This document shows positions 8,491-37,200 of a stretch of DNA of 64,000 nucleotides, piece after piece. Source of the DNA: a virus; IMG/VR virus record IMGVR_UViG_3300037116_000299, positions 150,301-214,300 of that record; one strand, 5' to 3'. The notes under the pieces are model-generated. The model saw only the letters and a list, made by a program, of their open reading frames with translations. It searched no databases and was not told the origin of the DNA. Position numbers and translations under genes: made by a program. Each line of letters starts with the position of its first letter. Position 1 is the first letter of the stretch.

Positions 8491-8497
8491 TCCGCAA

Positions 8498-9661: not shown

Positions 9662-10810
9662 ATGACCGCTAACCTTGTGTACCTCTTGAACGACGCTTCC
9701 ACGTTCGCCAACTTCTCCCAGTGGGCATCGCAGATTAGCGTCCAGCTTCAGCTCGCCGGATGGATTCAAAGCAACGACACAGGACAAGTCATGTGGACGG
9801 GCTTGACCATCAGTGCTGTGACCTGCACCGGAACCACATCAGTCTATACATACGCCTCGCTCACAGGTCTGCCGCTTGCGAATGGTCGTGCCTTGAACAT
9901 CACAGGCATGGGCAATTCGGTCAACAACGGAACGTTTGTCATCACGTCGTTCACCGGCACGACCTCGGGCACCTTCACCGTGACCAACTCAGCCAGTGGC
10001 ACTACGGCTTCCGGTCAGTCGGGTGTGGTCACAGCGAACACCGTTGTTCCTGCCACCAACGCCACGGTTTATGAAATCTGGCAACCCAATGACTCGTTGA
10101 CCAACTTCTTCCTCAAGATACAGTATGGGAACAGTCAGGCCGCGAATGCCCCGGTTCTAGTTGCTCAACTCAGCACCACCACCAATGGGGCTGGGGTACC
10201 CACAGGCTACGTTACCTCCCAATTTGTAGCGTGTGTGGGCGCACCCACCGCCCAGAGTGCCACGGTGCCCTGGGAGTGCCGCTTCTCTGGAGGACCCAGC
10301 TACTTCGGGGCTCTGATGTGGAGAGGAGTAAACACCGGTCAGTTGGTGTACATCGAACGCAGCGTGAACTCCAGCGGTGTCTACACCAACACGCACGTCA
10401 CCTTGGTGGTCATCGGGGACACTAACGGAGGCGGAGTCGTCACGGTTGCTAACCAGCAGACTCTGTACCTACAGAGCGGACTCGGGGCTTGCCCTGTAGT
10501 GTGCTCATCCACGAACTCAAACGCTTACGGCGGTTTGACTATCTCTGTGCCTAACCCTACCTCCAGAGGCAACCAAGCCTTCAACGGCACCGTGCCTGTG
10601 GACTTCATCTCTCCAGTGGTTGGGCTCCTCGATTACCCCCTTTATGGATTGGCGGGGACGAACTATCTGGCGGTGTCAGAAGGTCAGATTCTAACGGTAT
10701 CGGTGTACGGCTCTAACCACACCTACTTCGCCACTCAGGCTACACCTTTCTCTCAAGCGTTTCAGGGTTCAAGTGCCGCAGGTAACGCCCTCCTCATGAG
10801 GTACGAATAA
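9662..10810 (+). CDS. Fibre/adhesin protein, paralogue B
   Basis: A 382-residue protein whose ATG follows the previous stop directly. It aligns end to end with paralogue A (YLLNDASTFANF, SNDTGQVMW, VNNGTFVITS, YEIWQPNDS, CRFSGGPSYFGALMWRG, VYIERSVNSSG, LLMRYE), with the greatest differences in the middle loops. A tandem duplication followed by divergence is the simplest reading. Two copies could form hetero-oligomers or bind different receptors. Its stop overlaps the next start (TAATG). Confidence 0.6.
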   Translation: MTANLVYLLNDASTFANFSQWASQISVQLQLAGWIQSNDTGQVMWTGLTISAVTCTGTTSVYTYASLTGLPLANGRALNITGMGNSVNNGTFVITSFTGTTSGTFTVTNSASGTTASGQSGVVTANTVVPATNATVYEIWQPNDSLTNFFLKIQYGNSQAANAPVLVAQLSTTTNGAGVPTGYVTSQFVACVGAPTAQSATVPWECRFSGGPSYFGALMWRGVNTGQLVYIERSVNSSGVYTNTHVTLVVIGDTNGGGVVTVANQQTLYLQSGLGACPVVCSSTNSNAYGGLTISVPNPTSRGNQAFNGTVPVDFISPVVGLLDYPLYGLAGTNYLAVSEGQILTVSVYGSNHTYFATQATPFSQAFQGSSAAGNALLMRYE

Positions 10811-12570
10811 TGCCCCTGATGGCGCCCACGCCCATTGCGATGGCGAATCGTGGTAACACGGTCACCAACAGCAACACCGTTGCGGCTACGACACTCACCA
10901 TGTCTATCGCCAACAACAGTGTGGGTGTGAACGGGGGCAACTCCGTGGGCGGAAATGTATTGATGGTAGCGGCTATCGCTATCTACACGGCCAGTGTGAC
11001 GGTCTCCTCCATCACCCCCGGAGCGAACCTCTTCACCGGATGGACATTTCAAGGAGCAAGCACCGAACCCGGCTCAGGCGTCCGCATTGAACTGTGGACG
11101 ACGCCTTGTGTCCTCGGGGCTGGAACAGCCAACTCGACCATCAACTTCAGTTCAGCCGCTCTGGCCTCTGTGTCCGTGACCAGCTACACGGAACCTTACG
11201 ACTACCCCTCGTCGCCTCTGGTGAACAGCGGTTTGTACAACAACACCAACGGCATCACCACCGGTGTTCACGTTGAGACCATCTCTCCCGCAGCCTTCAC
11301 AGCGGGAAACCTGATTATCATGAGTATGCAAGCGACTCCGACCCCCACCAGCGTCACGGACAGTGTAGGTACCACATACACTTTGGTCAACACCGGTTCC
11401 TACAATGCCTATGGTGCTAACCTCTACGTCGCCGTGTTCGCCGGTATCGCCGCAGGTTCCTCCGCGTCTCCCACGGTGACGATGCACTTCGGGGCCAGCA
11501 GTGGTGTCTATCGCTACTACGTGAGCCAGTGGGCCGGGGTCACCGCAACGGTGGACACAACGAACGCTGTAGGAGTCCCGTCTCTTGGCGGGGCTGCGAT
11601 GAACACTATCAACGTCACCACGACCAATGCCAATGACCTCATTCACACCGTGCTTGCCATGTATGGTGGGAACCCGACCGTGTTGAGTCAATATCCGGGC
11701 AACGGCGTCATTGGTAGTTTTGAAGGCGCCAGAATTGTAAACAGTACGGGAACCTACCCGACCTACTGGACAAACAACAACTCAAGTATGGCGGTCACCA
11801 CCGCGTTCAAGGTATCTCCGACGTACACTCCGACCGCCGCGCCAACACCGCGTGTCGTAACGGCTCACAGTGCTGCAAGCACTGGTTTTTATGCTGAACT
11901 GGACAACACCCCCCAGTACGGGGGAAACATGATGGTCACCGCGTATGCGGTGGCTACCAACTCAGGAGATACATTCGCGGGTGCGGTTGGTACGCTTCGA
12001 ACTTCGGTGACACCTACGGTGACATCCGCTGCTGCTGTCCTCATGGAGAATGGGCCAACTAGCACCATCGCCAGTATGCGTACTCAGTTGAGGATGTCGT
12101 CCCAACGGGCATGGGCTGCTATCAGCTTTGAACTGGTGGCCGCTAACGGCACCTACACGCTGAATGCCAACCCGCTCGTTCAGTCCAACCACATAGGTCA
12201 ATCTGAAACGGCCAAGTACCAAGTGAAGTCCACCGACATAATCGAGAAGTACATGGTTCCGTCTCAGAATGGAAGTAGCTCCGGACTCTATCTGTTTGCT
12301 CAGGCTCTCGCCAGCGCTACCCTTGGCATTGCGTACTCAGAAACGATCTTTGCTACCGGAGGTTCCAGCCCCTATGCACTCACGGTTCTGTCCGGGACTC
12401 TGCCTCCTGGTCTGTCCTTGAACTCAGGCACTGGTGTGATTTCCGGTACACCTACAACGGCAGGTACGTACGGTTTCACGCTCAAGGCAATTGACTCGCT
12501 GCGCAACACTACGACTTGCACGTTCCAGATCCTGACGATTGCATCGACCAACAGCGGATTCGTGAACTAA
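10810..12570 (+). CDS. Ig-domain fibre/adhesin protein
   Basis: A 586-residue, Thr/Ser/Gly-rich beta protein. Residues about 1-440 contain two or three related beta domains of a type with SVTDSVGTTYTLVNTG and later YYVSQWAGV segments. Residues about 490-575 match the putative Ig (He_PIG) pattern: LPPGLSLNSGTGVISGTP followed by AGTYGFTLKAID. Such domains occur in surface adhesins and fibre tips. It ends the fibre block; its last four bases overlap the end of the reverse-strand glycosyltransferase gene. Likely receptor-binding or carbohydrate-contacting. Confidence 0.65.
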   Translation: MPLMAPTPIAMANRGNTVTNSNTVAATTLTMSIANNSVGVNGGNSVGGNVLMVAAIAIYTASVTVSSITPGANLFTGWTFQGASTEPGSGVRIELWTTPCVLGAGTANSTINFSSAALASVSVTSYTEPYDYPSSPLVNSGLYNNTNGITTGVHVETISPAAFTAGNLIIMSMQATPTPTSVTDSVGTTYTLVNTGSYNAYGANLYVAVFAGIAAGSSASPTVTMHFGASSGVYRYYVSQWAGVTATVDTTNAVGVPSLGGAAMNTINVTTTNANDLIHTVLAMYGGNPTVLSQYPGNGVIGSFEGARIVNSTGTYPTYWTNNNSSMAVTTAFKVSPTYTPTAAPTPRVVTAHSAASTGFYAELDNTPQYGGNMMVTAYAVATNSGDTFAGAVGTLRTSVTPTVTSAAAVLMENGPTSTIASMRTQLRMSSQRAWAAISFELVAANGTYTLNANPLVQSNHIGQSETAKYQVKSTDIIEKYMVPSQNGSSSGLYLFAQALASATLGIAYSETIFATGGSSPYALTVLSGTLPPGLSLNSGTGVISGTPTTAGTYGFTLKAIDSLRNTTTCTFQILTIASTNSGFVN

Positions 12571-13640
12571 GCCACTTGGATCTTGGTCTTGAGGACCGCG
12601 ATCCAAGGCTGCATCCATCCCGTATCGCGCGAGTTCCGTTCGATCGCGGCCAGCGTCCTGTCCGCGAGTCCGATCCTTCCGGTTTGAATCGCAGCAAAGG
12701 CAAACTCGTACGGCATTAGGTGCTGGTAGATGGTGGCATCGATGAACAACCGATCTTCCTTCGGATAGGGGAAGTCGTGGCCCCAGACCGAAGCATAGAA
12801 GAATGCCATCCGCGGCTCATCGATCGCCCGGTAATGCTGGACGATTTCATAGATCGGCTCAATGCGCGTCGGCCGATATTGGTAAGCCTTGAGGAATAGG
12901 GGCAGCACGGTCGCCTCCCAATCCTCTCCCAGGCGCATGGCCATCCGGCCCTTCTGATACATGGCGTACCAGCGTTCCTCGTCGAAGCCTTCAAGCAGCA
13001 CGCGTCGCCCATACCAGTATTCGGCGGGCCCATAGTGGCCGAAGTCCTTGTAGGACTGGGCCAGATAGAAGAGGCTCCGCGGATTGGTCGGATCTTCGAT
13101 CACAGCCTTGGTCAACAGGCAGATGTCGCGTTCGAACTTGTCCGTACGCATTGCTCCATCCGCCAGGTGAGTCAGGCTGATGTCGTGGATCTGCTCAAAG
13201 CGCAGCGCCGTCGGCGACGTGATGTATTCGTGGGTGACCCCGACATAGTTCCACTCGTGGCGCGACGACACCAGCATGGTCTGGGTGTAGTCGAGCGACC
13301 CTTCGTAGCGCAACTCATACGCATCCGCGGTCAGCTTTTCCTTGAATGGAGCCCGAACATTCAACACCATGTCCGCATCCATGATCAGCATGTAATCAGT
13401 CTTCGCCCGAGCGAGCCGTACGAGTTGCGTGCGATTGGCCCCGAAATTCACCCATGGGACTTCAATCAGATCCCCCGGCAGGCTCCCCAGTACGTCGAGC
13501 ACGATCGCCTGGGTGCCATCTGTCGACCCTGTGTCGCAAACGATCCAGGAATCGATCCATGGCTTCGCGGACTCTAGGGCGCGCCGAACGACTGCGCTCT
13601 CATTCTTCACCATCATGGCCAGGCAAACAGTTGGTTTCAT
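12567..13640 (-). CDS. Family 2 (GT-A) glycosyltransferase
   Basis: A 357-residue protein on the opposite strand to the neighbouring virion genes. The N-terminal domain has GT-A features: a start of the form CLAMMVKNES, DTGSTDGT at 36-43 and the metal-binding DAD at 88-90. The C-terminal half (about 180-350) is helical and Tyr/Trp-rich (YLAQSYKDFGHYGPAEYWYGRR), resembling a TPR-like region. It would transfer a sugar from a nucleotide sugar onto an unknown acceptor. Acceptor options are the adjacent Ser/Thr-rich fibres, or host surface glycans during lysogeny (seroconversion). The separate strand favours independent, possibly lysogenic, expression. Confidence 0.8.
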   Translation of the reverse strand: MKPTVCLAMMVKNESAVVRRALESAKPWIDSWIVCDTGSTDGTQAIVLDVLGSLPGDLIEVPWVNFGANRTQLVRLARAKTDYMLIMDADMVLNVRAPFKEKLTADAYELRYEGSLDYTQTMLVSSRHEWNYVGVTHEYITSPTALRFEQIHDISLTHLADGAMRTDKFERDICLLTKAVIEDPTNPRSLFYLAQSYKDFGHYGPAEYWYGRRVLLEGFDEERWYAMYQKGRMAMRLGEDWEATVLPLFLKAYQYRPTRIEPIYEIVQHYRAIDEPRMAFFYASVWGHDFPYPKEDRLFIDATIYQHLMPYEFAFAAIQTGRIGLADRTLAAIERNSRDTGWMQPWIAVLKTKIQVA

Positions 13641-21933: not shown

Positions 21934-22377
21934 ATGGCAGAACAGACCGCAGACCAGACCGCAGACCAGGGAGCCCCGATCACCCCTTTCGAGTTCCTCC
22001 AGGGTTTCGCCGGCGCGCCCAACCAAGCCGACATTGACAGTCTGAAGGCGCAAGCCCCAGGGGGACGCATCCGCCTCTTCCATTCCACCGACGCCAAGCG
22101 CGTGTACCTGATGCGCGGGATCTCCGCGATCGAACTGGTGCAGGTGCAGAACCTCATCCCCGCAGGCATCCACCCGGACAAACTGTCCGGAGTGATGCAG
22201 ACCACGGTTGCCATCAAATGTTGCGCGTGGACCAGCGAAACCGCCGACCACAAGCTCAGCGATCTGGCATTGCAGGCCGCCGGCGCGGGTCTCACCGGGA
22301 CGCTTCACGAGATCGTCTGCCAGCTCTCCGACTACATGGATCCGGCGACCATCGACCGCTGCAGCGCGGACCTGTAA
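21934..22377 (+). CDS. Tail assembly chaperone candidate 1
   Basis: A 147-residue acidic protein with an AGGAG site. It starts with a Gln/Asp/Ala-rich stretch, then a mixed alpha/beta domain (GGRIRLFHSTDAKRVYLMRG, VAIKCCAWTSETADHKLSDL). Between tube genes and the giant tail genes, this is the classical slot of the tail assembly chaperone pair. Its TAA is in the same frame as the next gene and separated from it by only four codons. Confidence 0.5.
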   Translation: MAEQTADQTADQGAPITPFEFLQGFAGAPNQADIDSLKAQAPGGRIRLFHSTDAKRVYLMRGISAIELVQVQNLIPAGIHPDKLSGVMQTTVAIKCCAWTSETADHKLSDLALQAAGAGLTGTLHEIVCQLSDYMDPATIDRCSADL

Positions 22378-22389: not shown

Positions 22390-23067
22390 GTGCAGGTATT
22401 TAGCGCTCAGTGGGCAAGCGGCCGCTACGCCAAGTGGCGGTCGCTGACCTGGGCAGAGTTCCGGCGGTTCGAAGATCGACTCCGTTACGAAAGCCCGATG
22501 CAGGTGTACGTCGACCTGTACCGGGCTGTCGTGATTCAGGGTCCTCCCTTGGAAGGCGATCCCATCTTCCAGGCCCCCGCGGGTCTGGTCGAGTTCGTCG
22601 CCCATTCGATGCTGGACTCCAATCCGTTCGGCGGCGAGTACACCTCCGTCAAGAACGCGATGGAGCAGAAGCGCACCGAGCTGAAGCAGAACTTCCTCTC
22701 CGCCAGCAAAGCCATCATCGCCGGGATCTTCCGCTACACCTTCGAGGAGATCGAGCAGTGGGATGCCGAGATGTTCTTTGAGCGCCTGGCTGCCGCCGAG
22801 TTTGTCTCCGGCCGCAAGGTAGAACCCGGCAATCCCAATCGCAAGGGCCGCCGCGGCCCCCAGAAGAAAGACTTGACCGCAGCACAGGAGCAAGTTGTCC
22901 AGCGTGTCGCGCAACGCGATCCGCGCATGCCGATGCCGGCCGAGGAATCCAGCTACGACCCCACCGCAAACTCAGAGGACGATCAGCCTCGTATGACCAA
23001 GCGACCCCTGACCCCTGCACAGGAGCAAGTCGCCGATCGGGTCCGCAAACAACGCATGGGAAGGTAG
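22390..23067 (+). CDS. Tail assembly chaperone candidate 2
   Basis: A 225-residue protein starting at GTG 22390 with a strong AGAGGAGG site overlapping the preceding stop. It is mostly helical and ends in two copies of a charged unit (LTAAQEQVVQRVAQR near residue 160 and LTPAQEQVADRVRKQR near the end) joined by an acidic linker. Position and the preceding in-frame partner suggest the second, larger tail chaperone. In many phages the two are joined by a -1 frameshift; here they share one frame and a stop codon separates them. Confidence 0.5.
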   Translation: MQVFSAQWASGRYAKWRSLTWAEFRRFEDRLRYESPMQVYVDLYRAVVIQGPPLEGDPIFQAPAGLVEFVAHSMLDSNPFGGEYTSVKNAMEQKRTELKQNFLSASKAIIAGIFRYTFEEIEQWDAEMFFERLAAAEFVSGRKVEPGNPNRKGRRGPQKKDLTAAQEQVVQRVAQRDPRMPMPAEESSYDPTANSEDDQPRMTKRPLTPAQEQVADRVRKQRMGR

Positions 23068-23070: not shown

Positions 23071-26000
23071 GTGCCCAATCCATTCATCGTATTCGATCTC
23101 GAGGCCAGCTCCTTCAACACGGGGCTGGCCAATTCGTTTCTGAATGGAGACGGCCGCGGCGCTGACTTGATTCAGGAGTTCGTCCGCACTAGTTCCGACC
23201 CTTCCCGTCTGCAACAGCATCCCCTCTTCCAAGCTCACCAGCGTTCCCAGATTCTGCAGGTCTACGCAACCGGCGGCGCCTTTCAAGGCGGCGACGAAGG
23301 ATGGGTACGTCCGTTCGACGAGATGCGCCGGTTCAACCGGCCGATCGGGAATTCACTCTACGATGAGAGCGACTTTGCCCTCCGTCATTCCCTGCTCTCG
23401 AAGGCACAGGGAGGCCGCAACTATGAAGCCCAGCGCGTCGAGCAACTGTACCAGGGAATCTCGGACTCGATCCGGTCCCATGGCAAGGCAGTCCTCGGTG
23501 GGCACAACATCGGGTCTTATGACTTGTGGAGGCTCGAGTACGCCACCTATCAGCACGACTCCCTGCGGAATCGCCGCGGGTGGCTGGCGGACCAGGTGCG
23601 CACGGGCCGTCTCATGTTGCGGGACAGCGACGCCGAACTGCTCGGAGCTGCCTCGGCGTTTGCCCGCCAGGATGCAGACTTTGCCGCCCATCACTTGAAG
23701 GGTGCGACCGACGTGGCTTCGGCCAAGTGGGTCTCCGGTCACAACCTGACCAACATCACCGAGGCAATGGGCTATCGCAACACCAATGCCCACAATGCCC
23801 TGGATGACACCCTCGGGAATGTGGCGTTCTTCGGGGACATCGATTCGGGGAAGGCCTTCACGCCGGAATCACTGCGTTCGATCTTCCCCCGCCAGGCTGC
23901 CGCTGCCACGCGCGAAGCCGCGCCGCTCCGGGCTACCGTGGCTGAAGCTGCAACGGAAGCGCGTTCTCTCTTCACCGGCGGAGAGAAGAAGTTCCTCATC
24001 GGCGCCGCCGTCGCCGCCGCCGCCGCCGCCGTAGGCTCTCTGATTGCGCACTCTACCCGCCGCGATCGCCAGACCCAAATCACAGGTCTTGGCGAGACCG
24101 GCATGGGCGCGCAGGGCCGCCACAGACTCACGGACTTCGGCTCTGGCTACCAGGGCCTCTCCACCTCCCCCAATCCCTTCCAGCTCGAGTCTGAGGCCGC
24201 CTACAACCCCCTGGTGCGCGCACTGGGTGTAGGCGTCACCGGCTCTGCGCTCTACGGCGCCCATCGCTACATGCTGGCGACGAGCCCGAACTATGCCAAG
24301 CGCCTCCACGGTGCTGCGCTCAAGTTCGAGCAGTATTCCCCCATGCACCTGGGGCGCACCTTCGCTGCCAGCGAACGGTTCTCGTCCTACCTGCCCAGCA
24401 AGCTGGTATTCACCCGCGGGATGCTGACCAATGACGACGGCACCCTCAATGAGGTGGGCCAGACCTTCGATCGTCAGTTCTCAGCAGCCGGACACAAGTT
24501 TGATTTCCTGAATGAGGTCACCGAAGACAATCCCCTGGTCTTCGAAGGCCGCCGCCGGGCGGGCTCCGGATCCCTGCAACTCCAGGGGCGCGGCATCGAC
24601 ATCGAGACCCGGTTCGTCCCCTCCGAGGGACGTCTGGCGGGAACCGCCGCGCGGCTTGACCAGGCGTTGGTCAACCATCCGATTCGCAGGTCGCAGGCTC
24701 AGAGTTCAGTCAAGCAGGCCTGGGGTGATTTCCAGGCAGTCCGCCGATCCCAGCGAATCTCGAATGCATCTCCCTGGTCTGAAGTCGCTAGTGCTGAAAA
24801 GCTGTATCGGCCTTTCTATACCCAGGGGCATGTCGCCGATCCTGCCGACGAGCTGTTCTCCCAGGCCCGCAATGCATGGACCCGTCTTCGGGTAGAGGGG
24901 CTCGAGGCGACCGAGCGTACCCAGAGACTCTTCGCGGAAGCAGGGTTCGGACTGAAGGCAGGTACCTGGAACAAAGCAGCTCATCTCCCCTTTGTCGGGG
25001 AAGGCGGCATGCTCAACCAGATGCTCACCAAGCGCGTCGCGCCTCTGGTGCTTGCAGCCACTGCGCTGGGCTGGCTGGACTATAAGCTGGGGCATCCAAG
25101 CAACAAGATCGTCGATCTTGGCCTGAAGGCCAATGTCCTGCGCGCCGACCTGACCGATATGGTCCCCGGCGCCCGCGGCGTCACTGACTTCTACGACAAG
25201 GTCACCCCGGGATCGCAGTACGGCCCGTTGGCGTTGCCCCTGGCCGGCGCTTTCTTTGGAGGTGTCTACCACTACGGCAAACTCCTCGGCGGCAAGTACG
25301 CCGATGAGGCAGCCAGGACCCTCGGGGCTCGTATCCTCCCTGAGATGAAGGGCCTGCGCAACTTCACCGCTAAGGGTGGCAAGTTGGTTTCCGTCGAAGG
25401 AGCTTCCGCTATCTGGAAGTCTCTCGGCGCGCCGGGCAAGGGCGCTGCCATCGGCCTGGCTGCCATGGCTCTGTTCGTGCCCGGCATGCTTGGGTCCCGT
25501 AAGAGCGGCGCCGATCTGCGCGACATCTACTCCGGCAGCGAACCGATTCCAATCAGGTCCGGCCGCTGGTGGGAAGTCGGCTCAACACCCTACGAAGGCG
25601 GACGCATCAAGGAGTGGCGTCCCCACTGGAGCGTGCTGCGCAAGAGTCATGCAGAAGACATCTCGCTCTACGGATCCGAGAAGGATAAGTGGAAGCACAA
25701 TCCCATCCTGCATCCGCTGAAGTATGCCCGCGATCCCTACTGGCTTGAGAAGCAGCATTACTACGATCGACCGTACCCGGTTGCGTCCCCGGCGTTCTCC
25801 AATGTTCCCTTGATCGGCCCGCTGCTCGCCGCGACCGTCGGCAAGTTGGTCAAACCGCCTGTGCGCATGCATGAAGAGAACTGGAATGGAGAGGATTACA
25901 CCCTCTACTCAACCCGTCTGGAACCGAAGGGCCCAGGCGCGGTCGCGCCGCCCCGTCCGGAAGACGAGTTCACCCTCAGACATGCCCTCAAGCAGGAAGT

Positions 26001-28101
26001 AGGTATCCTGGCCGAGTACACCGGACTCTACGGATTCATCGCCAGCAGCGCCTACCAGGCCATCTTCCCAGGTGTGAACCAGGGCAAGGACGTCTACTTC
26101 CAGGGCTCCCGTCAGATGGACAATTTCTCCCGCCGCTACTACGAGCGGGAGCTGGGCGCCGGCATCGCGCCGTCTCCCTCGATGAAGGAACACTTCGGAT
26201 ACACCGAGCCCTTCCGCCGATTTGTCCAGCGGGAAGACTTCTCTCCCCAGGCCAACCCACTGCGCAACCAGATGCCTGGCTGGCTGCCCGGAGCCGACTA
26301 CCTCACCAACTTCCAAATCGGCGATCCCTTCACCAAGGTCGACGAGGGCTATGCCCGCCTGCCTGGCGCCGGCTACGAGGCCCTGCATCCAGAGTTGAAG
26401 GGACTCAAGCCCGAAGACTACCCCGACATCAACAAGCTGGCCATCCTGGGTGACGTAGCCCCGTACTCGCGCGAGTACAACATCTTCCGTTCGAAGGTAG
26501 GCGCCGACTCCGCCGACAACACCGAGCTGCGCATCGAGTACGAGAAGATCCTCGACCGCGTCCGGCAGACCAGGGAGTCCGTCATCCGGATGGACGCTCG
26601 TCGCTTCACCGAGCCTGTCGCTGAGCTTGAAGGCACCGTCGAAACGGCGACGCCCGGCGGAGTCACCCTCAAGGAACACCCCGGACAACTCTTCCAGTTC
26701 TCGTCCGTGAGCATGAGTGCCGCCAGCATGTCGGCGAGCATTCTCGGCGAGCACAACAATCTGACCCGCGCGGAAGTTGCCGGACAGGTTGACGAGCGCC
26801 ATCAGAAACTGCAGGACTACCTGGCTGGGATGGTTGGATCCAAAGCCCACCTGACAGTCCCCGATGGAACACTCGGCCGGGCGGAGCGCGCACGAGCCGT
26901 CATCGAAGTCGATGGCAAGAACCTCAACCGGGAACTGATCGACCAGGGTTACGGCCAGTATCAAGAACGCCTGGGCGGAGCTGAAGCGCAGGAGATGTTC
27001 GGCGCCGCCGGCAAGACCATGGGCTCGATCGCTGAGGCCCTCGCCTTCCAGGGCGACTCCGGCCGGCTCAACCCGATGCGCTACATCCCCACACCAGGCC
27101 ACACCAAGGCCTGGCAGGAGCGCACGCCACTCGCCCAGTACATGACCAACGAGGTTGTTGGCACCCGCATGCGGCGGTGGGAACGGCCCATCCATGACTT
27201 CCTCATGCCTTACGCACGAGGCGCCTGGCAGCGGATGAGCGGTAAAGCTCTCATTCCTGAGGATGTACAGGTTCGGCGGGATCTGAACACCCTGGGCGAC
27301 ACCATGCAATATCTCCGCGGACTCAATGCGGAGACCTCGGGGACCTATACTAATAAGAAGCAGAGGACTTCTGTCGGGGCCAACCTGTTTGCCGCGTCGA
27401 CGTTTGTAGCTTCTACCCTTCCCGCCCGCGAATCCCATTACTTCCGCCAGTTCCTCAACGAGACGGATCCCGAGAAGCGGGCCTCGATTCTCGAAGTGGC
27501 TTCGACCGAGATGCAGCGCGCCCTTTCCGCGCAGTGGGTCGCTCAGGAAGCTCGCATTCAGGTAGCCAACGGCGAAGACCCTGGCCCGATCGGCGAAGGC
27601 GGCCGGCTCTACACCCAGGCCAACGTCGAGGACTACAAGAAAACCGACACCAGTCTGGACTACGGCAATTGGTTGCGATCCAAGGAGATCGCCGACTTCT
27701 TCTCCCGCACCGGGTTTGCTCTTCCCGAACAAGGATCAGCTGCATACGACGAAGCTTTGGATTATGAGGACGTCAAGCTGAAACTGATTCAACAGGAAGG
27801 GTACGACTCCCATGACTTCAACATCTTCGATGACCGGGCAGCCATGCTGTGGCGCAAGCCGTATGTGGATGGCGCTGTCCGCGAACTCACCAGTGGTGAC
27901 GATCGTTCCCCAGAACAGTTGCGGCGGGCGGTCGAACAGCTGATGACAGCCTCACACGACGCAAGATCGGATGTTCGAACTGCGGTACACGCAAGCCACA
28001 CGAATCGCGCGAGCATTCGAGTGGATGTATCTGTCGACGAGAGCGACGCACTGGTGAGAGACATTCGCCGCAACCCCGACAAGTATGCGCAGGAGACGTA
28101 A
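23071..28101 (+). CDS. Giant membrane-segment tail protein with N-terminal DEDDh exonuclease domain
   Basis: A 1,676-residue protein at the tape-measure position. Residues about 5-255 form a complete RNase T/DnaQ-type 3'-5' exonuclease domain: D9-x-E11, GGHNIGSYD with D151, and H241 with D246 in AHNALDDT. Residues about 305-325 (an alanine run encoded by a GCC-rich tract), 375-395, 665-680, 715-735, 790-810 and 910-930 are hydrophobic and could span membranes. Residues about 1175-1300 resemble a degenerate staphylococcal-nuclease fold ending in NRELIDQGYGQY. It may act as tape measure and/or be ejected into the cell. Nuclease activity is predicted from the motifs, not known. Confidence 0.75.
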   Translation: MPNPFIVFDLEASSFNTGLANSFLNGDGRGADLIQEFVRTSSDPSRLQQHPLFQAHQRSQILQVYATGGAFQGGDEGWVRPFDEMRRFNRPIGNSLYDESDFALRHSLLSKAQGGRNYEAQRVEQLYQGISDSIRSHGKAVLGGHNIGSYDLWRLEYATYQHDSLRNRRGWLADQVRTGRLMLRDSDAELLGAASAFARQDADFAAHHLKGATDVASAKWVSGHNLTNITEAMGYRNTNAHNALDDTLGNVAFFGDIDSGKAFTPESLRSIFPRQAAAATREAAPLRATVAEAATEARSLFTGGEKKFLIGAAVAAAAAAVGSLIAHSTRRDRQTQITGLGETGMGAQGRHRLTDFGSGYQGLSTSPNPFQLESEAAYNPLVRALGVGVTGSALYGAHRYMLATSPNYAKRLHGAALKFEQYSPMHLGRTFAASERFSSYLPSKLVFTRGMLTNDDGTLNEVGQTFDRQFSAAGHKFDFLNEVTEDNPLVFEGRRRAGSGSLQLQGRGIDIETRFVPSEGRLAGTAARLDQALVNHPIRRSQAQSSVKQAWGDFQAVRRSQRISNASPWSEVASAEKLYRPFYTQGHVADPADELFSQARNAWTRLRVEGLEATERTQRLFAEAGFGLKAGTWNKAAHLPFVGEGGMLNQMLTKRVAPLVLAATALGWLDYKLGHPSNKIVDLGLKANVLRADLTDMVPGARGVTDFYDKVTPGSQYGPLALPLAGAFFGGVYHYGKLLGGKYADEAARTLGARILPEMKGLRNFTAKGGKLVSVEGASAIWKSLGAPGKGAAIGLAAMALFVPGMLGSRKSGADLRDIYSGSEPIPIRSGRWWEVGSTPYEGGRIKEWRPHWSVLRKSHAEDISLYGSEKDKWKHNPILHPLKYARDPYWLEKQHYYDRPYPVASPAFSNVPLIGPLLAATVGKLVKPPVRMHEENWNGEDYTLYSTRLEPKGPGAVAPPRPEDEFTLRHALKQEVGILAEYTGLYGFIASSAYQAIFPGVNQGKDVYFQGSRQMDNFSRRYYERELGAGIAPSPSMKEHFGYTEPFRRFVQREDFSPQANPLRNQMPGWLPGADYLTNFQIGDPFTKVDEGYARLPGAGYEALHPELKGLKPEDYPDINKLAILGDVAPYSREYNIFRSKVGADSADNTELRIEYEKILDRVRQTRESVIRMDARRFTEPVAELEGTVETATPGGVTLKEHPGQLFQFSSVSMSAASMSASILGEHNNLTRAEVAGQVDERHQKLQDYLAGMVGSKAHLTVPDGTLGRAERARAVIEVDGKNLNRELIDQGYGQYQERLGGAEAQEMFGAAGKTMGSIAEALAFQGDSGRLNPMRYIPTPGHTKAWQERTPLAQYMTNEVVGTRMRRWERPIHDFLMPYARGAWQRMSGKALIPEDVQVRRDLNTLGDTMQYLRGLNAETSGTYTNKKQRTSVGANLFAASTFVASTLPARESHYFRQFLNETDPEKRASILEVASTEMQRALSAQWVAQEARIQVANGEDPGPIGEGGRLYTQANVEDYKKTDTSLDYGNWLRSKEIADFFSRTGFALPEQGSAAYDEALDYEDVKLKLIQQEGYDSHDFNIFDDRAAMLWRKPYVDGAVRELTSGDDRSPEQLRRAVEQLMTASHDARSDVRTAVHASHTNRASIRVDVSVDESDALVRDIRRNPDKYAQET

Positions 28102-29171
28102 TGCAACCGCACAGCATCACCCTTGACCCCGAGCTGCACAGCGTTGATATCCGCGAGATTGAACGTCGCCTGAAAGAAAGGGTGGCTGGTCAAGATCCGG
28201 CCATTTCACAGTTGGTGGGCTTGCTCGAAACCTACTTTGCCGGCTACAACGACCCTAATGCTCCTGTGGGCGTGGTGCTTGCCCTGGGCCCGTCCGGGAC
28301 CGGCAAGACCAGTCTGATCGAAGCTCTGTGCGAGATACTCTACGACAACCCCAAGGCGCATGTTCGGATGAACTGCGCGGACTTCAAGGAGTCCCAACAG
28401 ACCCAGCGGATTGTCGGAGCGCCTCCGGGCTACATCGGTTTCAAGGACAAGTCGATCGAGACGTATTTGACCCAGGAGAATCTGGACCGCCATCACACGG
28501 CGAAGATGAAGCTCAGCGTCGTCCTGCTGGACGAGATCGAGGAAGCTCATAGCGCCCTCTATGACTACCTGCTGGCCGTATTCAATGACGGCGAAGGCAT
28601 GGTCAGCGGCAAGCTGGTCAACTTCCGCAACACCCTGTTTGTCATGACCTCGAACCTGGGGACCTCCACGAAGTCCAGCCTGCTTGGCTTTACGGCCGAC
28701 CAGGTCGCCGCCCATAACCACCAGAACGAAGCATCGATCCGCAAGGCAGTGCAGGAGCATTTCAAGTTCAAGTTCCTGAACCGCATCGACGAAACCATGA
28801 TCTTCGAGGCGCTGTCCAAAGAGACCATCGACCTGATCTTCGACATGCAGGTGTGCCAGATCCGCCGCAGGCTTCTGATCTCGAAGCAACCCGGTCCGCA
28901 GTACGTGTTCAAGATCCAGGACGATGCCCGCCAGGAGCTGGTCCGCCGCGGCTTTGACATCAAGTTTGGAGCCCGTCCCCTGAAGCGTGTCCTCCGCCGG
29001 GTCATTACCGACAAGCTGGCGGCTCTGATGCGCAGCGGCCAGGTGGAACACGGCGACCTGGTGGTGATCGATTACACCGGCATTCGCTTCATCTACGAGA
29101 AATACAACGGTGACGAAATCGGCCAGCTCTCGGACCCGCAATGGGCCGAGTTCAGCAGGATCATCGACTAG
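28101..29171 (+). CDS. ClpA/ClpB-type AAA+ ATPase
   Basis: A 356-residue single-ring AAA+ protein resembling the second ATPase module of ClpA/B/V. Walker A GPSGTGKT (63-70), substrate-gripping pore loop GAPPGYIGF (106-114), Walker B VVLLDEIE (140-147), sensor 1 TSN (183-185), arginine finger in FLNRID (R228) and sensor 2 GARPLKR (290-296) are all present, so it should be an active hexameric unfoldase. It lacks the N-domain, first ring and middle coiled coil of ClpB. It overlaps the upstream giant gene by one base and precedes the second giant gene. A role in folding, loading or threading those proteins, or in sheath handling as with ClpV, is inferred. Confidence 0.88.
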   Translation: MQPHSITLDPELHSVDIREIERRLKERVAGQDPAISQLVGLLETYFAGYNDPNAPVGVVLALGPSGTGKTSLIEALCEILYDNPKAHVRMNCADFKESQQTQRIVGAPPGYIGFKDKSIETYLTQENLDRHHTAKMKLSVVLLDEIEEAHSALYDYLLAVFNDGEGMVSGKLVNFRNTLFVMTSNLGTSTKSSLLGFTADQVAAHNHQNEASIRKAVQEHFKFKFLNRIDETMIFEALSKETIDLIFDMQVCQIRRRLLISKQPGPQYVFKIQDDARQELVRRGFDIKFGARPLKRVLRRVITDKLAALMRSGQVEHGDLVVIDYTGIRFIYEKYNGDEIGQLSDPQWAEFSRIID

Positions 29172-29329: not shown

Positions 29330-32300
29330 ATGCCAAATCCCCTCCCATCGATGACCCGAACCGCCCTCAACTCCCTCAATGAGGGTGTTGACGGCGTGCG
29401 TGCATGGGCGAATCTCAGCCTGCTGCACTCCAGGGTGGGTATGGGAGCGGGCATTGCCATGCTGGCAGCTCCGTTGTTCCTGAAGAATGACGAGCGCGGT
29501 TACTTCCAGACGGCTGCGATGACCACTCCCTTGATCGCCGCCGGCGCCATGGTAGCGCCGCGGCTGTTCCCGACGCTGCAGCGCGAAGGTAAACGCCTCA
29601 TCGACGTGGTCAAGCAGGTTCCTACCGACTACGGCTTTCAGAGCGGGGTCTACAACGCCGAGAGCGGCGCAATGAACCTATCCGAACTGCGCCAGGCCTT
29701 CGAAGGCGGACGCATCTCCTCCGCGGATTACAACCGAGGTTTGCTGCGCTATCACGGTGACATTGCCGCCAGCGTGATCAGTCCCGACGAGATCGACCGG
29801 CAGTTCCTGTCGGCATCCCGCACCTTCTCCGAACTGTACAAAGATCCCACCAAGCACCGCATGCTCGAGAACGCGCTGTACCGCGCGACGCTGAGCCAGG
29901 AAAGCGCCGGCGAGAAAGCTGCCTGGAACGACCTGACGGCGGTTGCACCAAAGATGTCGCTCAATGAGATCGACGACCTGTTCGACGCCTACTCCAAGAA
30001 CCCGGACTGGCTGAAACAGGTCAACTACCGAATGCAGGAAGCCCGCAAGGCAACTACATCCGGCGCCACCATTCCCTCAATCGACACCCTGGTCGATGCG
30101 AATGCCGAGTACGTGCACTCTTACAGCCTGGATACAGATCAGGGCATGGCGATGCTCAAGAACTCGCCGTTCCAGGATGAGATGAGCGAGATCGAGACCC
30201 TGCTCGGCACTCAGGGTGCGGGCTGGAAACGATCTGACTTCGAACTGCAGGTTCTGCCTGATCGCAACCAGGCAGTCAACCGCATCCAGGGCCTGATGGT
30301 TCGGGGCGAGCTGTCGATTCCTTTTGCTGATGCGGACGGCGGCGTGCGCCTGGGCAGCCGGTTCGACCGGCACGGGGCCTCCCGCTTCTTCATCACCCAC
30401 AACGACCGGCTCTCCTCCCAGGTCTATGCCCTGCGCGGGCTGCAGAGCGGCCCCGCCGCCATGCCGAGTGTGGCCGAGGAGCTGGCGCGCGCTCAGTTCA
30501 ACATTCAGGGCGATGCAGGTGCATTGCGCAACCAGAAGTTCTTCTTTGGCAAGCAGGGTGTCATGGGCAATCTGCCGAACTCATTTCCCACCGAACGAGG
30601 CGCAAAGGGATTTGCCGATCTTCGTCCGGAAGAGATGATGGCCGCGATCAAACATCAGACCGAGGGGCCGGATGGCCTGGTCCGGATGTCAGGCGGTACG
30701 GGTCTGGACATCTATGAAGATCGCTCACTGCGGTTGATCGAGCCCCAGGGCGTGCACTCGCGTGAGGCGGAGAGTCTGCGCGGCAAGGCCGTCAACAAGG
30801 GCGTCTCCGCCTGGGTAGCTCCCGGCCATGAAGGCTTCTCCGCCACCAACGCCGTGGATCTTCCTGAGTTTGCGATGCGGACCTACCAGGTGTCGGGCAG
30901 CCAGCATGCCTTCTTCAGCGAGATGCCGGAATGGAAGGCGATCGAGAACGACGTCAACCAGCAGTTCGGTTATATGGAAGCTGCCGGTTTCGGAGGCAGC
31001 TCCGCCCTGGAAGAAGAGGCACGACAACTGTCTGTCGATGTCGCCTTGAGCAAGATTGGCGCTCGGGAACGCATGATCACCTTCATGGCAGGAGATGCGG
31101 GTGTTGGTATGGAAGCAGCCGAGGCCATGTACACCAAGTTCCTGCCATTCCTGGCCAATCCCAAGAACTACGAGGCCATGCGATCGCTCTCCTATCTGGG
31201 AGATGGATCCAGAATCATGGGCAACAGCATCGGCGCTGGCTTCACCCAGACCCGCTCGGTGCGCCTGCACGAGAGCCTGCTCACCGAAGGCATGCTGAAC
31301 GGGGAGACCATTCCCGAAGGCACGCCACTGGGCTTCGAGTACGGCAACGCCGTGTTCCCCAACGGGGAGCGCAACAAGATCGTCTCGCACTCGAGCACCT
31401 TCAACGAAGACGGGTCAATGACCTTCCAGATCGAAGAGAACCTGGGCAGCCAAGGCCTGAAGACGCACGGCTACACCAAGCAGACGACTGTGCTCGGGCT
31501 CAACGACCTGACCCTGGACCGCGTGCGCCGCGGTACGAATGCGTGGCATCAGGCGACCGGCAGCGGTGGTGTGGTCGATGAGCGAGTAGCCGCCTTCACC
31601 CTGGAGGGTTCCAACTCGGCCAAGGCCAAGAACCCCCTCTCCATCATGGAGAACATGCTGGGCGCCACGCTGGGCGATGTCCAGCAGGCAAACGGTGAGC
31701 TGCCCGACTTTCTCAATGCCGGCCTCAAGCAGCTGTCGCCCTACGGCTATTCGTTTGAGAACGGCGGACTGCTCAGCGACTCGTCGAAGTTCCTGAGCAT
31801 GGAGCATGCTCCTGCGAACTACACCGCTGTGGCCGAGATTATGCACGGCTTGATGGAACAGACCGGCGCGGCCATCAAGGCCGAGCAAATCAAGCTGGAC
31901 GCATCCATGCGCGGCTACATTGACTGGTCCATGAAGAACTCCAACGGGTCTTATACCGACTACAAGACCCGCTTCGGCATGCCCGAATCTCTCAGCGTAT
32001 CCGATCACATGGCCCTGAACCACGCCGGTGAGGTTCGGATCACGCGCGACGCACTGCAGCAGTTGAACATTATGGGCTACCACGAGGTTGCCAAAGAGAT
32101 CAACGACCGCCTGCAGACCGACGGACTCCCGAGTATGACCCAGGACTTCCTCAAGCACATCGAGAAGGACGGCCAGGACTTCTCCGGTCAGTTTGGTGAT
32201 ACCACCGTTTCGCTCGCTGATGCAATGGGAGGTTCCGACCTGCGCCTGGGCACCGCCGCTGGGCGCTCGGGTACGATCTTCGACCCAAAGAATCCGCTTG

Positions 32301-34279
32301 CCCAGAAGAACTACTCCGTCCTGGCCAATGTGGAAGGCAAGGACTATTACATCCCTGCCCTGGGGCGAGAAGCCTTTGGAGGCGGAGCAAACGCATACGG
32401 CACCGACGGTTACTCGGCCAACACGTGGGAGGGCCAGTTCAAAGATGTGCTGCAGGCTGCCGGCGGCGACAAGGAACCCTTCGAAGCGAAACTCAAGACT
32501 TACACCGACACCGTGAAACAGAAGGTGGGGATGGGCAAGGAGAGTGTGTGGCGCCCGTCGTCCGTTGACCCTCTGGGCATGGAAGGGCGCGCCGCCTCGC
32601 GCGCTTCGTCTCTGCGCTACGCGGATGGTTCCGTAAACCCCTACGAGATCGGAGTGGGCAACCGTTATCTGGATCTGATGGCCGCCGACGATGCAGCCGC
32701 TCTGCGCCGCGGTGGTAGCCGAGCATCTCTGCTCTTGCGTCACCCGATCAACGCTCCGGCCATCACCGTGATGAAGTACGACCCGCGGCTGGACAACACC
32801 TGGGACATTGGAGTGGATCCTCTGCTGCAGTTGATCGATAAGGGCGACACCGACGGCGATCGTATGTCAGCCCATCTGATCAACGGGGACCACTTCACCA
32901 AAGAAGGTTTCGCCAACTTCATGAAGAATGAAGTTCACGGATCTCAGAGCCTGCAAAGCAGTCAGGTCAAGTTCAACCGAATCTTCAATGGTGATGAGGG
33001 GCCCGTTCCCTTCAAGGACTGGTTCGCCGAAGCAGGTGAAGGCGCCCGGCGGCGCAACGGGTTTGCCACCTTCGCAGGAGTTGATGTCCGCCGCGCCCTG
33101 ATGGCTCGCACCGCCGGCGCCGACGTCGGCATGCTGTCGAACACCTTTGAGCTGATGGAGACCACGATCGCGCACAGCAATTCGATCCGCATGCCTGCCG
33201 AGCGTCTACTTGCCCACCAGACCCTGTTCGATATCGTCAAGCAATCCTCGATTGCCGCCCAGAAGTTGAAGAAGGGGGACGCGGTCGGGGACTACACCCA
33301 GCTTATGGCCTGGAACAACAAGCTGCGTGGTTCCCTTGCAGATCGGTCTGCCAATGGCCAACAGGGCTTTATGAAGGCCCTCATGGAAGGCGCTGAGAAG
33401 TTCGGCAAGGATGTCGACATCAACGATGAACACGTTGGAATGGGCATTGCCACCCAGGCAGAGCTGGAAGCTGGCAGTCAAATCAATCCCTACGCGCGCT
33501 TGCTCGAGCACAAGGCTGATCTCTTCGGACGGGTCCACTCTAGCTTCGACCCGCGACAGGCAGATGCCCATAAGCTATGGACCATGTCCGCCGCTGATGC
33601 CGAGAAGTTCTACGGCAACGTCACCGGCCGGATGACCGACGATATGCTTCCCCTGATCCAGGCGGCAGCCAACCGAGGCAGCGCAAGCAATTTGAGTGCT
33701 GCGGTTCTGGGAGCTGAGAACGAAGCCAACAAGGTGGCGCAGTTTGCCGGGAAGGCACGGCGGGCGGCCGCCGGGTTGGTCGATGCGGCCGGGCAGTCTG
33801 CGGAAGAAGTCATGCGGACCGCTCGGGGAGCTGGCGTCAGTAAGGTCCTGGGCATCGGCATGGCAGCCGCGGCTGCAGGAGGCCTGCTGTTGGGGTCTCT
33901 GCACAGCCCGCGCGAGGGACAGGCTTTGGCTCCTCCATCGGGTAATGCCCAGCGTCCGGAAGAACGGATCGGAGTCGAAGATCGCATTCCAGGAGAACCT
34001 GAGCCTGGGGCGATGGCACCTGCCAACCCACCGCGTATGGTGAGGTCAGCTCGGCAGGGTGTACGCACTTCCGTCGTTGCCCCCATGGGTCGTGCGACCC
34101 AGCTCGAAGTCCACATGAAGGCCGACGACCGTAGTCGAGCGGCCGAAGCTGCCCGTCTTGCCGCAAGACTTGCCTCCGGCGATGGGAACTCCAGCACCAC
34201 GATCAATTACCGCGACACCACTCGACTGGACAGTCTCCGCACCCGGGACAAGGTCCGCGAGGCGATGAACGAAAGCTAA
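29330..34279 (+). CDS. Giant virion protein with RNA polymerase double-psi-barrel motifs
   Basis: A 1,649-residue protein. The key segment is LLLRHPINAPAITV (R1137, P1139) followed 36 residues after R1137 by D1173-x-D1175-G-D1177 in GDTDGDRMSAHLI. E. coli beta-prime has LLNRAPTLHRLGIQ and NADFDGDQMAVH with R425 and D460 35 residues apart, so both sequence and spacing agree. Residues about 680-720 (EGTPLGFEYGNAVF, then LGSQGLKTHGYTKQ with K711 and K717) resemble the beta-subunit barrel that supplies two lysines. A single chain with both barrels fits the YonO/crAss-phage virion polymerase class. Hydrophobic segments lie at about 40-75 and 1500-1525. The start at 29330 has no ribosome site; an ATG at 29351 is an alternative. 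Part of the protein may have tape-measure functions. Confidence 0.72.
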   Translation: MPNPLPSMTRTALNSLNEGVDGVRAWANLSLLHSRVGMGAGIAMLAAPLFLKNDERGYFQTAAMTTPLIAAGAMVAPRLFPTLQREGKRLIDVVKQVPTDYGFQSGVYNAESGAMNLSELRQAFEGGRISSADYNRGLLRYHGDIAASVISPDEIDRQFLSASRTFSELYKDPTKHRMLENALYRATLSQESAGEKAAWNDLTAVAPKMSLNEIDDLFDAYSKNPDWLKQVNYRMQEARKATTSGATIPSIDTLVDANAEYVHSYSLDTDQGMAMLKNSPFQDEMSEIETLLGTQGAGWKRSDFELQVLPDRNQAVNRIQGLMVRGELSIPFADADGGVRLGSRFDRHGASRFFITHNDRLSSQVYALRGLQSGPAAMPSVAEELARAQFNIQGDAGALRNQKFFFGKQGVMGNLPNSFPTERGAKGFADLRPEEMMAAIKHQTEGPDGLVRMSGGTGLDIYEDRSLRLIEPQGVHSREAESLRGKAVNKGVSAWVAPGHEGFSATNAVDLPEFAMRTYQVSGSQHAFFSEMPEWKAIENDVNQQFGYMEAAGFGGSSALEEEARQLSVDVALSKIGARERMITFMAGDAGVGMEAAEAMYTKFLPFLANPKNYEAMRSLSYLGDGSRIMGNSIGAGFTQTRSVRLHESLLTEGMLNGETIPEGTPLGFEYGNAVFPNGERNKIVSHSSTFNEDGSMTFQIEENLGSQGLKTHGYTKQTTVLGLNDLTLDRVRRGTNAWHQATGSGGVVDERVAAFTLEGSNSAKAKNPLSIMENMLGATLGDVQQANGELPDFLNAGLKQLSPYGYSFENGGLLSDSSKFLSMEHAPANYTAVAEIMHGLMEQTGAAIKAEQIKLDASMRGYIDWSMKNSNGSYTDYKTRFGMPESLSVSDHMALNHAGEVRITRDALQQLNIMGYHEVAKEINDRLQTDGLPSMTQDFLKHIEKDGQDFSGQFGDTTVSLADAMGGSDLRLGTAAGRSGTIFDPKNPLAQKNYSVLANVEGKDYYIPALGREAFGGGANAYGTDGYSANTWEGQFKDVLQAAGGDKEPFEAKLKTYTDTVKQKVGMGKESVWRPSSVDPLGMEGRAASRASSLRYADGSVNPYEIGVGNRYLDLMAADDAAALRRGGSRASLLLRHPINAPAITVMKYDPRLDNTWDIGVDPLLQLIDKGDTDGDRMSAHLINGDHFTKEGFANFMKNEVHGSQSLQSSQVKFNRIFNGDEGPVPFKDWFAEAGEGARRRNGFATFAGVDVRRALMARTAGADVGMLSNTFELMETTIAHSNSIRMPAERLLAHQTLFDIVKQSSIAAQKLKKGDAVGDYTQLMAWNNKLRGSLADRSANGQQGFMKALMEGAEKFGKDVDINDEHVGMGIATQAELEAGSQINPYARLLEHKADLFGRVHSSFDPRQADAHKLWTMSAADAEKFYGNVTGRMTDDMLPLIQAAANRGSASNLSAAVLGAENEANKVAQFAGKARRAAAGLVDAAGQSAEEVMRTARGAGVSKVLGIGMAAAAAGGLLLGSLHSPREGQALAPPSGNAQRPEERIGVEDRIPGEPEPGAMAPANPPRMVRSARQGVRTSVVAPMGRATQLEVHMKADDRSRAAEAARLAARLASGDGNSSTTINYRDTTRLDSLRTRDKVREAMNES

Positions 34280-34282: not shown

Positions 34283-37200
34283 ATGAGTGTTACCTTCTCC
34301 ACCAGCAACTCGGGCCCTTCGTCTGCCGGCTACTTCCGGATCGGCTTTGTCACGCTGCAGATCCCGCCTCAGAACATCGTGACCTCGCGCGTCGTCAACA
34401 ACGACAAGCTGGCCACTCTGCGCGGCATGAACGAGATGTTCCGCAAGACCGGTCAGGCTCGCTGGGACGTAACCGTGAGCTGGGCCGCCATGATGGGCGG
34501 CGCCACACCCGAAGCCAAGTACCAGCAGTGGAATGATCTGCAGAACGTCGCCGCCATGTTCAAGGCAGCTCCCTTTGTCGAAGTCGAGTCACCTCACCTG
34601 CGCCAGGTCCTGGCCCCTCACGATCCGCTGATGGCTTATCCCCACCGGCTGGGGATGGCGTTGCGGCAGCTACGCGTTGATTCCCATCCCGATATCGTGG
34701 ACACCCTTCTGGTCACGTTGACGATGACCTACTTCAACTTCGGTCCCTACTCTGTGGCCTTCGACTATGTGGGCGACGAAGGACAGCCAGTCAGCGCCGA
34801 TCAATGCACCAAGTTCAAGAACTACATCGCCATGTGGCGCGCGAACAATATGGACCACGTCTCCGCGCGGGACGGCGACCCGATCGCACCGCTGTGGATG
34901 GCACAGGATCCAGGCGAGATGGCCCTGAAGTACCGGATCTACAACCCGGTTCCAACCGGTCAACTGCCGGACTTTGGAACCATGGTCATGCCTGGCGGCG
35001 CCCAGGTGGGCACGACAGTGCTGCCCAGCACCTACACTCCAGCGTCAGCGACATCTGCCGCGGCCGGCAAAGCGAGCAAGGGAACTCTGCCTCCGGATAT
35101 CGAAGCTCTGATTCGGAAGACGGCACTTACGGTCAAAGGGTACTGTGATCCGGCTATTGCCTGTGCAGTCTGTCTCACCGAAAGCGCTGGAAACCCAACT
35201 GCTCACAATGCAGGATCGACAGCACAGGGTCTCTTTCAGTTGCTGGCAGGCACGCGCCAGTCCCTCAACGTGGCGGACGGCTTCAATGCACAGCAGAGCG
35301 CCCAAGGTGGCTGCCAGTACCTGGCCGATCTGTTCAAGAAACTGGGCACCTGGGAGCTTGCCGTTGCTGGTTTCAACCAGGGATCCGGCACCATCGTTGC
35401 TTATCGGGACGGCAAGGCCTTGACCGACAAGAGCAACGGGCACGTGATCAATCCGAACAAGCTGGTGACCGGTGGAATTCCTCCGGATCCTGCTGTGCAG
35501 CGGTACGTTTCAACCATCCTGCGCAATGCACAGATGAAGTTCGGATTCACCGGGCAGACAGCACCTCAGCCAGGCTCCCAGCGGCCACAGACCGCACAAG
35601 TGGCACCGGCCGCTGCGACCAACAGCGCCACATCGCCCGCCACTTCCACCAGCAATCCAATGACAGCGACGGACTCCGCGACCGAACAGGCGTTCCAGGC
35701 CCAGGCTACCGAGATGGCGGCCGACGGTTGGAGTCTTGATCATCGGTCGGACACCGCGGGCGTCGGGATCTGCTTCTTCTACAAGGAAGCCGAAGTGAGG
35801 ATGGCTCCGCTCGATTCGTCTACGGCGGATGTCACCGGCGGCATCTGGCCCACCCAGTTCTCGGTTCTGCTGGTGAACAATCTGGCGCAGATCCCTCTGT
35901 CCGGTTATCAGTATCCGACCTATCAGCATCTTGGCCCCTGCAGTTCGCTGGTGCAGATCTCGTTCATGTCCAAGGGCGAGCGCGCCGACGAAACCCAGGA
36001 ACCTGTGCACGAAGGCCTCAGGTCGCTATCCTCCATGGCTCACTTCATGGAACAACAGCACCTGCGTCTGCGCACGCAACTGCGCACGCCCAATTCCCTG
36101 CATCGGATGCAGGCAGTCTACGTTGAGAACCAGGTCCTGAACATGCTCGGCATCTACGGCCTCATGCTTGACCAGGTCACTACCGAGACATTGCCCGAGT
36201 CCTCGGACCTGGTCACGGCGCAGCTGACGGCCAGCCAGTACGAGAACCGCTTCGAAGAGATCGAGCCCTACAAGTTGAACGGCATCTCCCAGGCCTACAA
36301 CCAGGGGTTGAAGGACCTGGTGCTGACCGACAATACCATTCAGCAGGCACCTTCCGATGTCCAGGGACCGTTGAAGCCCATCTTGAACTACCGCACCCAG
36401 GCAGATAACGCAGATGAAAATGCGATGATCGCGCGCCTGATGGAAGTCGCGGCTCAGCCGTCGTCGACTCTGTTCACGTACATGGCAGGTGCACCCACTT
36501 TCACCATCAGCCAGGTCGACGCCGCCCAGATCACCTACCAGACGGGAGTGGACTGGTCGAAGTATCCGGTCGCACTCGCCCGGGTGAAGCAACTCCAGCA
36601 GACTGGCGATGCTCAGACCTGGACGATGGCCGACTACCTGATGATCAAGAGCGTGGCCTGGAAGGTCTACAAGCCGGTTAATCTGGGCGGCAGTATTCAA
36701 CACGTCGACTCAACCTTCCAGGGCAACACCCGCCGGACGATGGTCCAGGATGCGTATCAGCGGCTGTTCGCGTACTTTGCCGCGAGCGACACCGGACTGC
36801 GCACCGCTCTCAACCAGGTGATGAACAGCCCAGCCCTGGCCGCCAAGGTCAAGGGCGCAGTGCCCTCCGGGGACCCGTCGCTGGCGTCACCAGGATCCAA
36901 CGACCACGGCGCCTACCGGGATATGGGTTTGAACACCATCCTGTTGAACGGCGAAGACTTCAACCCCGGCATGTACTTTGTCAACAACAACGAACAGTAC
37001 AAGACACTTGCGAAAGGCGCCCTGCTGGATGTGATGAGGTCGACGGCATCGGCGGCGGCGCAGACCAACAGCAATGACAACAGCCAGCAGCTGCCGAATT
37101 CAGTGGCCCCAATCTCCTCGACGACATCTCTGACTCCGACAAACCTCCCCGTAGATCAGGCAGGACAGATCAACCTGCCGGCAGGCCTCAAGTCGATCCC

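Follow-up and report, generated by a model that had tools for sequence, protein, structure and literature searches.

The enzymes carried in phage virions shape the very start of infection and, to our knowledge, few have been described that are neither cell-wall hydrolases nor RNA polymerases. Enzymes resembling RNase T trim the 3' ends of RNA and single-stranded DNA, and the largest subunit of RNA polymerases carries the catalytic signature R-x-P...D-x-D-x-D. In the Thermus phage P23-45, the tape measure is fused to a tested virion RNA polymerase (gp96), and some relatives of P23-45 are devoid of the polymerase domain (PMC10770324). A staphylococcal nuclease domain has been reported in the BtI1 hub, from the same phage lineage as the locus described below (PMC2147016). 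The giant proteins 0305phi8-36 orf145, ME3_35 and KLEB27-3 gp031+gp033 all occupy the same place, after a chaperone pair and before the tape-measure place. Here, we describe a protein at this place that begins with a putative DEDDh exonuclease domain; by inspection, no such domain is recognised at the N-termini of the ME3, KLEB27-3 and MTATph1 proteins, unlike in the protein under study.

The stretch of DNA analysed, called here the window, comprises 64,000 nucleotides (bases 150301-214300 of a 214,300-bp IMG/VR virus record) and holds the structural genes of a contractile-tailed jumbo phage. It contains matches to a major head protein (PHROG, E 1e-11), a tail sheath (E 2e-36) and a baseplate wedge/J protein (E 8e-26; Baseplate_J, E 2.5e-22) and, as judged from such matches, the tail of this phage is contractile. 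A gene resembling Vsr-type mismatch endonucleases (58138-58575, E 2e-7) lies close to where the tail genes end, and positions 61431-61507 encode a tRNA-Arg(ccg). The ORF of interest (23071-28101, + strand) opens at a GTG codon and encodes a large putative virion protein of the orf145 type. The protein has 1,676 residues and a membrane-type segment, as the earlier note had described. Its first 262 residues (23071-23856, +) are assigned to the DEDDh 3'-5' exonuclease domain and are followed by a hydrophobic segment detected by hydropathy at residues 308-326 (23992-24048, +) and by a conserved post-membrane motif at residues 332-363 (24064-24159, +), which reads DRQTQITGL...RHRLTDFGSGYQGL in the window. 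This motif (DRQTQITGL...RH.LTDFGSG..GL) is confined to the exonuclease-bearing homologues, and the conserved FGSG motif has no match elsewhere in named phages.

For the body of the protein, matches were obtained to ME3_35 of Acinetobacter phage vB_AbaM_ME3 (E 3e-23; 36% identity across about 20% of the protein), to a protein of the Moorella phage MTATph1 (E 1e-14) and to the KLEB27-3 counterpart gp031/gp033 (E 5e-14), which are annotated as virion structural protein, hypothetical protein and structural protein, respectively. Two further relatives are worth recording. In L014, the orf145-type protein (7995-13205, L039) is apparently split, between a conserved RWWEVG and ST, by an insert that resembles an intein, measures roughly 330-400 residues, starts with C and ends in HN. 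A 4.9-kb contig from an Acidobacteriaceae MAG (L046, JASHTU010000510.1) carries a partial orf145-type protein with 41% identity over about 180 residues; its presence in this bin is a weak hint to the host, or a contamination.

To situate the ORF among the tail genes, its neighbourhood was compared with that of ME3, in which the sheath and tube genes are followed by two chaperone-like genes, the ME3_35 place, a second giant protein and the hub. In the window, the ORF is preceded by two genes (21934-22377 and 22390-23067, both +) presumed from their position only to be the tail assembly chaperone pair, like orfs 143/144 of 0305phi8-36 and ME3_33/34; the first of them has no family match. Downstream are found a ClpB/ClpA-type AAA ATPase (28101-29171, +; AAA_2 E 1e-28, ClpB_D2-small E 2e-15, phrog_4871 E 6e-73), a second giant protein of 1,649 residues (29330-34279, +) that synteny and alignment A5 place with orf146 and ME3_36, and a baseplate hub-type protein with an SLT transglycosylase domain (34283-39973, +; SLT E 3e-13) at the place of the ME3_37 hub. 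The ATPase thus lies between the giant proteins; L010 has an ORF of comparable length at this place, and in L006 and L031 the space is too small for one.

The earlier note had put the exonuclease on a protein in the tape-measure position, and this assignment had to be revised. The ORF does encode a large protein following the chaperone pair, itself assigned by position, as expected of a tape measure. It is the second giant protein, at 29330-34279, that is syntenic with orf146 and lies directly before the hub. The ME3 notes give YP_001429636.1 as the homologue of ME3_35 and YP_001429638.1 as that of the hub ME3_37, which would place the window ORF at orf145, one giant gene before the assigned tape measure orf146. 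Synteny with ME3 and 0305phi8-36 therefore probably rejects the protein encoded by 23071-28101 as the tape measure itself, and both giant proteins, of the orf145 and orf146 types, may be in the tail.

To examine the N-terminal domain, relatives of the whole protein were gathered from IMG/VR and the exonuclease domains of six viral lineages (the window, L009, L010, L011, L030 and L031) were aligned. The five catalytic residues named in the earlier note, D9, E11, D151, H241 and D246, were confirmed in the translation and lie in three motifs identified by sequence and alignment: Exo I, FIVFDLEAS (D9 and E11; 23083-23109, +), Exo II, GGHNIGSYDL (N146 and D151; 23497-23526, +), and Exo III, AHNALDDT (H241-x4-D246; 23788-23811, +). 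Pairwise identity in the domain is only 20-34%, except for L009 and L011 (75%). All five residues are nevertheless invariant in the six lineages, as is the case in every domain-bearing homologue, so that the search for this fusion in related phages proposed in the earlier note returned carriers in which the catalytic residues are all kept. The invariant columns number 20 out of 197 fully occupied ones and include all five (hypergeometric P = 7e-6, a rough guide since the sequences are related), together with Y150 in Exo II and A243 in Exo III. In L030 alone, motif II reads GYHPLYD, with H for the supporting N, and the catalytic D is retained. It should be noted that when the domain was shuffled, 0.6% of the shuffles contained a loose five-residue pattern with broad spacing, so that motif presence alone is weak evidence and the case is carried by conservation; a stricter pattern, tuned on these very sequences, was obtained in 0 of 200,000 shuffles. 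In the one informative pair, L009/L011, dN/dS was 0.10 for the domain and 0.07 for the remaining part of the protein, rough values because dS is near saturation, and the domain is under purifying selection in this pair.

This conservation bears on whether the domain could be a structural exaptation, that is, an RNase-H-like fold kept as an assembly or membrane-docking module devoid of enzymatic activity. The lineage does repurpose nuclease folds: residues 1176-1320 of the same protein (26596-27030, +) correspond to a degenerate staphylococcal-nuclease-like fold, as 60 of the 60 PDB matches listed for profile A9 of this region are of the staphylococcal/thermonuclease type (best E 0.018) and the Pfam SNase model matches its best member at E 0.0096. 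By inspection, the usual catalytic residues, of the R35/D40/E43 type, are not recognisable in the window protein, and this region is thus probably inactive. In the N-terminal domain, by contrast, none of the five metal and catalytic residues varies, although identity over most of the domain is down to 20-34%, and we consider an exapted, inactive exonuclease fold improbable.

The family assignment was then addressed with profiles and predicted structures. Single-sequence searches with the domain returned nothing usable in Pfam, PHROGs or PDB. The curated Pfam RNase_T model (PF00929) did not match it at E <= 10; a match to PF00929 is diagnostic of that model, and the DEDDh superfamily is not defined by it. 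Among PHROGs, phrog_192 (DNA polymerase exonuclease subunit) matched residues 223-247 at E 0.034. When the six-sequence profile was compared with all PDB chains, the top three distinct sequences were RNase T (E 0.0015, 0.11 and 0.16), and D-x-E-T, the N...D segment and H-A-x-x-D aligned in the same order. Comparisons by hhalign with Rnt, DnaQ and Orn of E. coli, each taken as a single sequence and not as a deeper profile, were uninformative and recovered only one motif each at low probability.

AlphaFold models of the domains were built on 6-8 sequences. The model of the window domain reached a pLDDT of 71.6, with a poorly modelled insert at residues 72-116 and a first strand at residues 5-12, on which the D-x-E of Exo I is predicted to sit. 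Against PDB, Foldseek returned weak matches for it, led by a TREX1 homologue at E 0.43, and DEDDh/exonuclease entries were among its top viral matches in BFVD. The model of the sister domain from L031 had a lower confidence (63.5); its best 31 PDB matches were all RNase T or DnaQ, with probabilities up to 0.99 and E values from 0.008, followed by Cap18, ExoI and Orn, and several of the RNase T structures matched contain single-stranded DNA. It should be noted that none of the three Foldseek searches gave a match at E <= 0.001, and that global TM-scores were mostly 0.35-0.55. The structure prediction against RNase T and DnaQ proposed in the earlier note thus returned a fold predicted to be RNase-H-like, in agreement with its claim of an intact DEDDh domain. 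Taking the predicted folds and the motif conservation together, residues 1-262 very probably belong to the DEDDh (RNase T/DnaQ) superfamily with an RNase-H-like fold, a membership that we take as established, and the invariance of the catalytic residues makes the domain a likely competent enzyme, to a high degree of confidence. The same genome also carries, elsewhere, a stand-alone gene of the RNase_T family (DEDDh; G000:C1:34730-35215, L047; E 2e-13).

The distribution of the domain was examined among the relatives. The L006 clade, L014 and L040 lack a block of about 360 residues that comprises the exonuclease, the membrane segment and the post-membrane motif, and the remainder of their protein is intact and alignable; the L006 clade is 67% identical in this remainder. 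In these non-carriers, the reading frame opens directly after the preceding gene, with no room upstream for the module. Relocation of the DEDDh domain to a separate gene was rejected for them, for this same want of room and because their partial records contain no A3 match. In a tree of the protein core, from which L030 was left out as its anchor was not found, carriers and non-carriers are interleaved and at least 3 changes are forced. Since the module is homologous at the same position, this suggests an ancestral module that was repeatedly lost, repeated gain being a possible alternative. In named phages (50,697 records), tblastn with the exonuclease domain gave no match, and single-protein scans with L009, L010, L030 and L031 added no exonuclease-bearing lineage except L043, a fragment close to L031. 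In the open-licence PMC literature, no report was found of a tail or tape-measure protein bearing a DEDDh domain. The earlier note knew of no standard tape measure with this domain, and the absence of the fusion from named phages is supported within these collections. As judged from these alignments, the exonuclease module is accessory, yet catalytically constrained where present.

Two functional explanations are directly affected by this pattern. The first, suggested in the earlier note, is that the phage needs the domain to process the end of its own genome on entry, a reaction that would be within reach of a 3'-5' exonuclease carried on an entry protein. The reaction itself is conceivable; its obligatory form became less likely in view of the repeated absence of the whole module, as three lineages whose remaining protein is intact lack it entirely, and the genome encodes a second enzyme of the DEDDh family at another place. 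We regard this explanation as very improbable. The second is an accessory counter-defence, in which the domain would degrade host defence nucleic acids or nucleotide signals at the entry site, such as oligonucleotides, guide RNA or tRNA fragments. Patchy presence combined with strict catalytic conservation is the pattern expected of arms-race genes, and the DEDDh enzyme Cap18 is among the matches of the predicted fold; any dispensable function would fit the patchiness, however, and the Cap18 match indicates the DEDDh family only. Counter-defence taken by itself is a tentative possibility, and it is also one of the roles included in the explanation that we prefer, namely an accessory exonuclease acting at the entry site. 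That the module is evolutionarily dispensable but catalytically constrained favours such an accessory role, in host takeover or counter-defence, over an obligatory part in genome entry.

The second giant protein carries a signature that raises the question of a partner. Within 29330-34279, a segment at 32738-32860 (+) displays an active-site signature resembling that of RNA polymerase beta' subunits, R-x-P...D-x-D-x-D. Across one 186-column segment aligned from six lineages, KLEB27-3 included, the sole invariant positions are R84, P86, D120, D122 and D124. The motif is retained in L009 and L011 and is visible by eye in ME3. When the profile of this segment was compared with PDB, 32 of the 35 matches were largest subunits of RNA polymerases (best E 0.0019), phiKZ gp55 included, and RNA_pol_Rpb1_2 matches KLEB27-3 gp034 at the same place, at E 7e-5 in one genome, a match that falls short of the curated cut-off. 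The profile of the whole protein (A5) found no polymerase in PDB. With respect to the architecture of two-barrel RNA polymerases, the sequence presents what appears to be the signature of the beta' double-psi barrel, and a second (beta) barrel with its catalytic lysines was not located in 29330-34279. This protein is thus a candidate tape-measure-fused virion RNA polymerase of contractile jumbo phages.

Both giant proteins might then be delivered at the entry pore, where the exonuclease, as a partner of the RNA-polymerase-like protein, would trim or proofread nascent transcripts or clear 3' ends while the incoming genome is transcribed. Two virion-type genes stand in the same neighbourhood, one of them with the invariant R-x-P...DxDxD and its 32 of 35 PDB matches to RNA polymerases, and P23-45 offers the precedent of a tape-measure-fused virion RNA polymerase (PMC10770324). 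In the L006 clade, the polymerase signature is present and the exonuclease is missing, so that the coupling is not obligate, and we hold this partnership to be unlikely as the explanation of the domain. Its fuller version, a two-protein entry complex in which the DEDDh exonuclease protein, tethered to the membrane, and the protein at the tape-measure place, with its polymerase active site, would act together at the pore, transcribing the genome on arrival and trimming or clearing RNA and DNA 3' ends, is a speculation to which we attach a low probability. A role of the exonuclease beside the polymerase-like protein is possible within the accessory reading, and it would not be obligatory, given the same L006 clade.

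Taken together, these results are best explained by an accessory 3'-5' exonuclease, carried on a virion protein and ejected or exposed at the entry site, a reading to which we give a probability of about 0.6. Residues 1-262 would constitute a competent two-metal 3'-5' exonuclease of the DEDDh (RNase T/DnaQ) type, tethered through the membrane segment to a large tail protein of a contractile jumbo phage resembling 0305phi8-36 and ME3. The protein would be stored in the virion and, on tail contraction, would reach or cross the host membrane with its N-terminal domain facing the cytoplasm. There, the domain may trim free 3' ends of RNA, single-stranded DNA or short oligonucleotides near the entry site, and this trimming would serve takeover or counter-defence in an accessory manner, possibly beside the RNA-polymerase-like protein at the tape-measure place. 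A folded domain of 260 residues is not expected to fit in the lumen of a typical tail tube, and the domain would hence be unfolded there or be placed in the head, neck or baseplate.

If this reading is true, a large tail protein with a conserved and catalytically intact 3'-5' exonuclease would add a nucleic-acid-degrading activity to the set of virion enzymes, and the patchy loss of the exonuclease among close relatives suggests an optional weapon or helper at the very start of infection. The close relatives that lack the exonuclease and are 67% identical in the remaining protein provide a natural comparison. Likewise, the signature in the neighbouring protein, if it denotes a polymerase, would extend the tape-measure-fused virion RNA polymerases to contractile jumbo phages, and the entry complex, if true, would be a transcription-and-nuclease machine made of tail-lumen proteins.

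With regard to known enzymes, the window domain shares the order of Exo I, II and III with RNase T (E. coli Rnt, P. aeruginosa 2f96), DnaQ, Cap18, ExoI and Orn, and differs from RNase T and other DEDDh enzymes by a longer insert between Exo I and Exo II. RNase T-type enzymes stand alone, whereas the domain described here is fused to a membrane segment and to a virion protein of about 1,300 residues. With regard to tail proteins, P23-45 provides the precedent of a nucleic-acid enzyme on a tape-measure protein, where here the DxDxD signature is found in the neighbouring protein. P23-45 is also a siphophage with the polymerase on the tape measure itself, whereas here the exonuclease is on the preceding gene and the tail is contractile. 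The tape-measure-related effectors of the Streptomyces contractile injection systems (CIS), such as Sle1 (PMC13277306), are, as may be the case here, tail cargo with exchangeable functional domains. Sle1 belongs to a CIS and not to a phage and has its functional domains at the C-terminus, with no nuclease reported in that paper, whereas the putative exonuclease described here is N-terminal.
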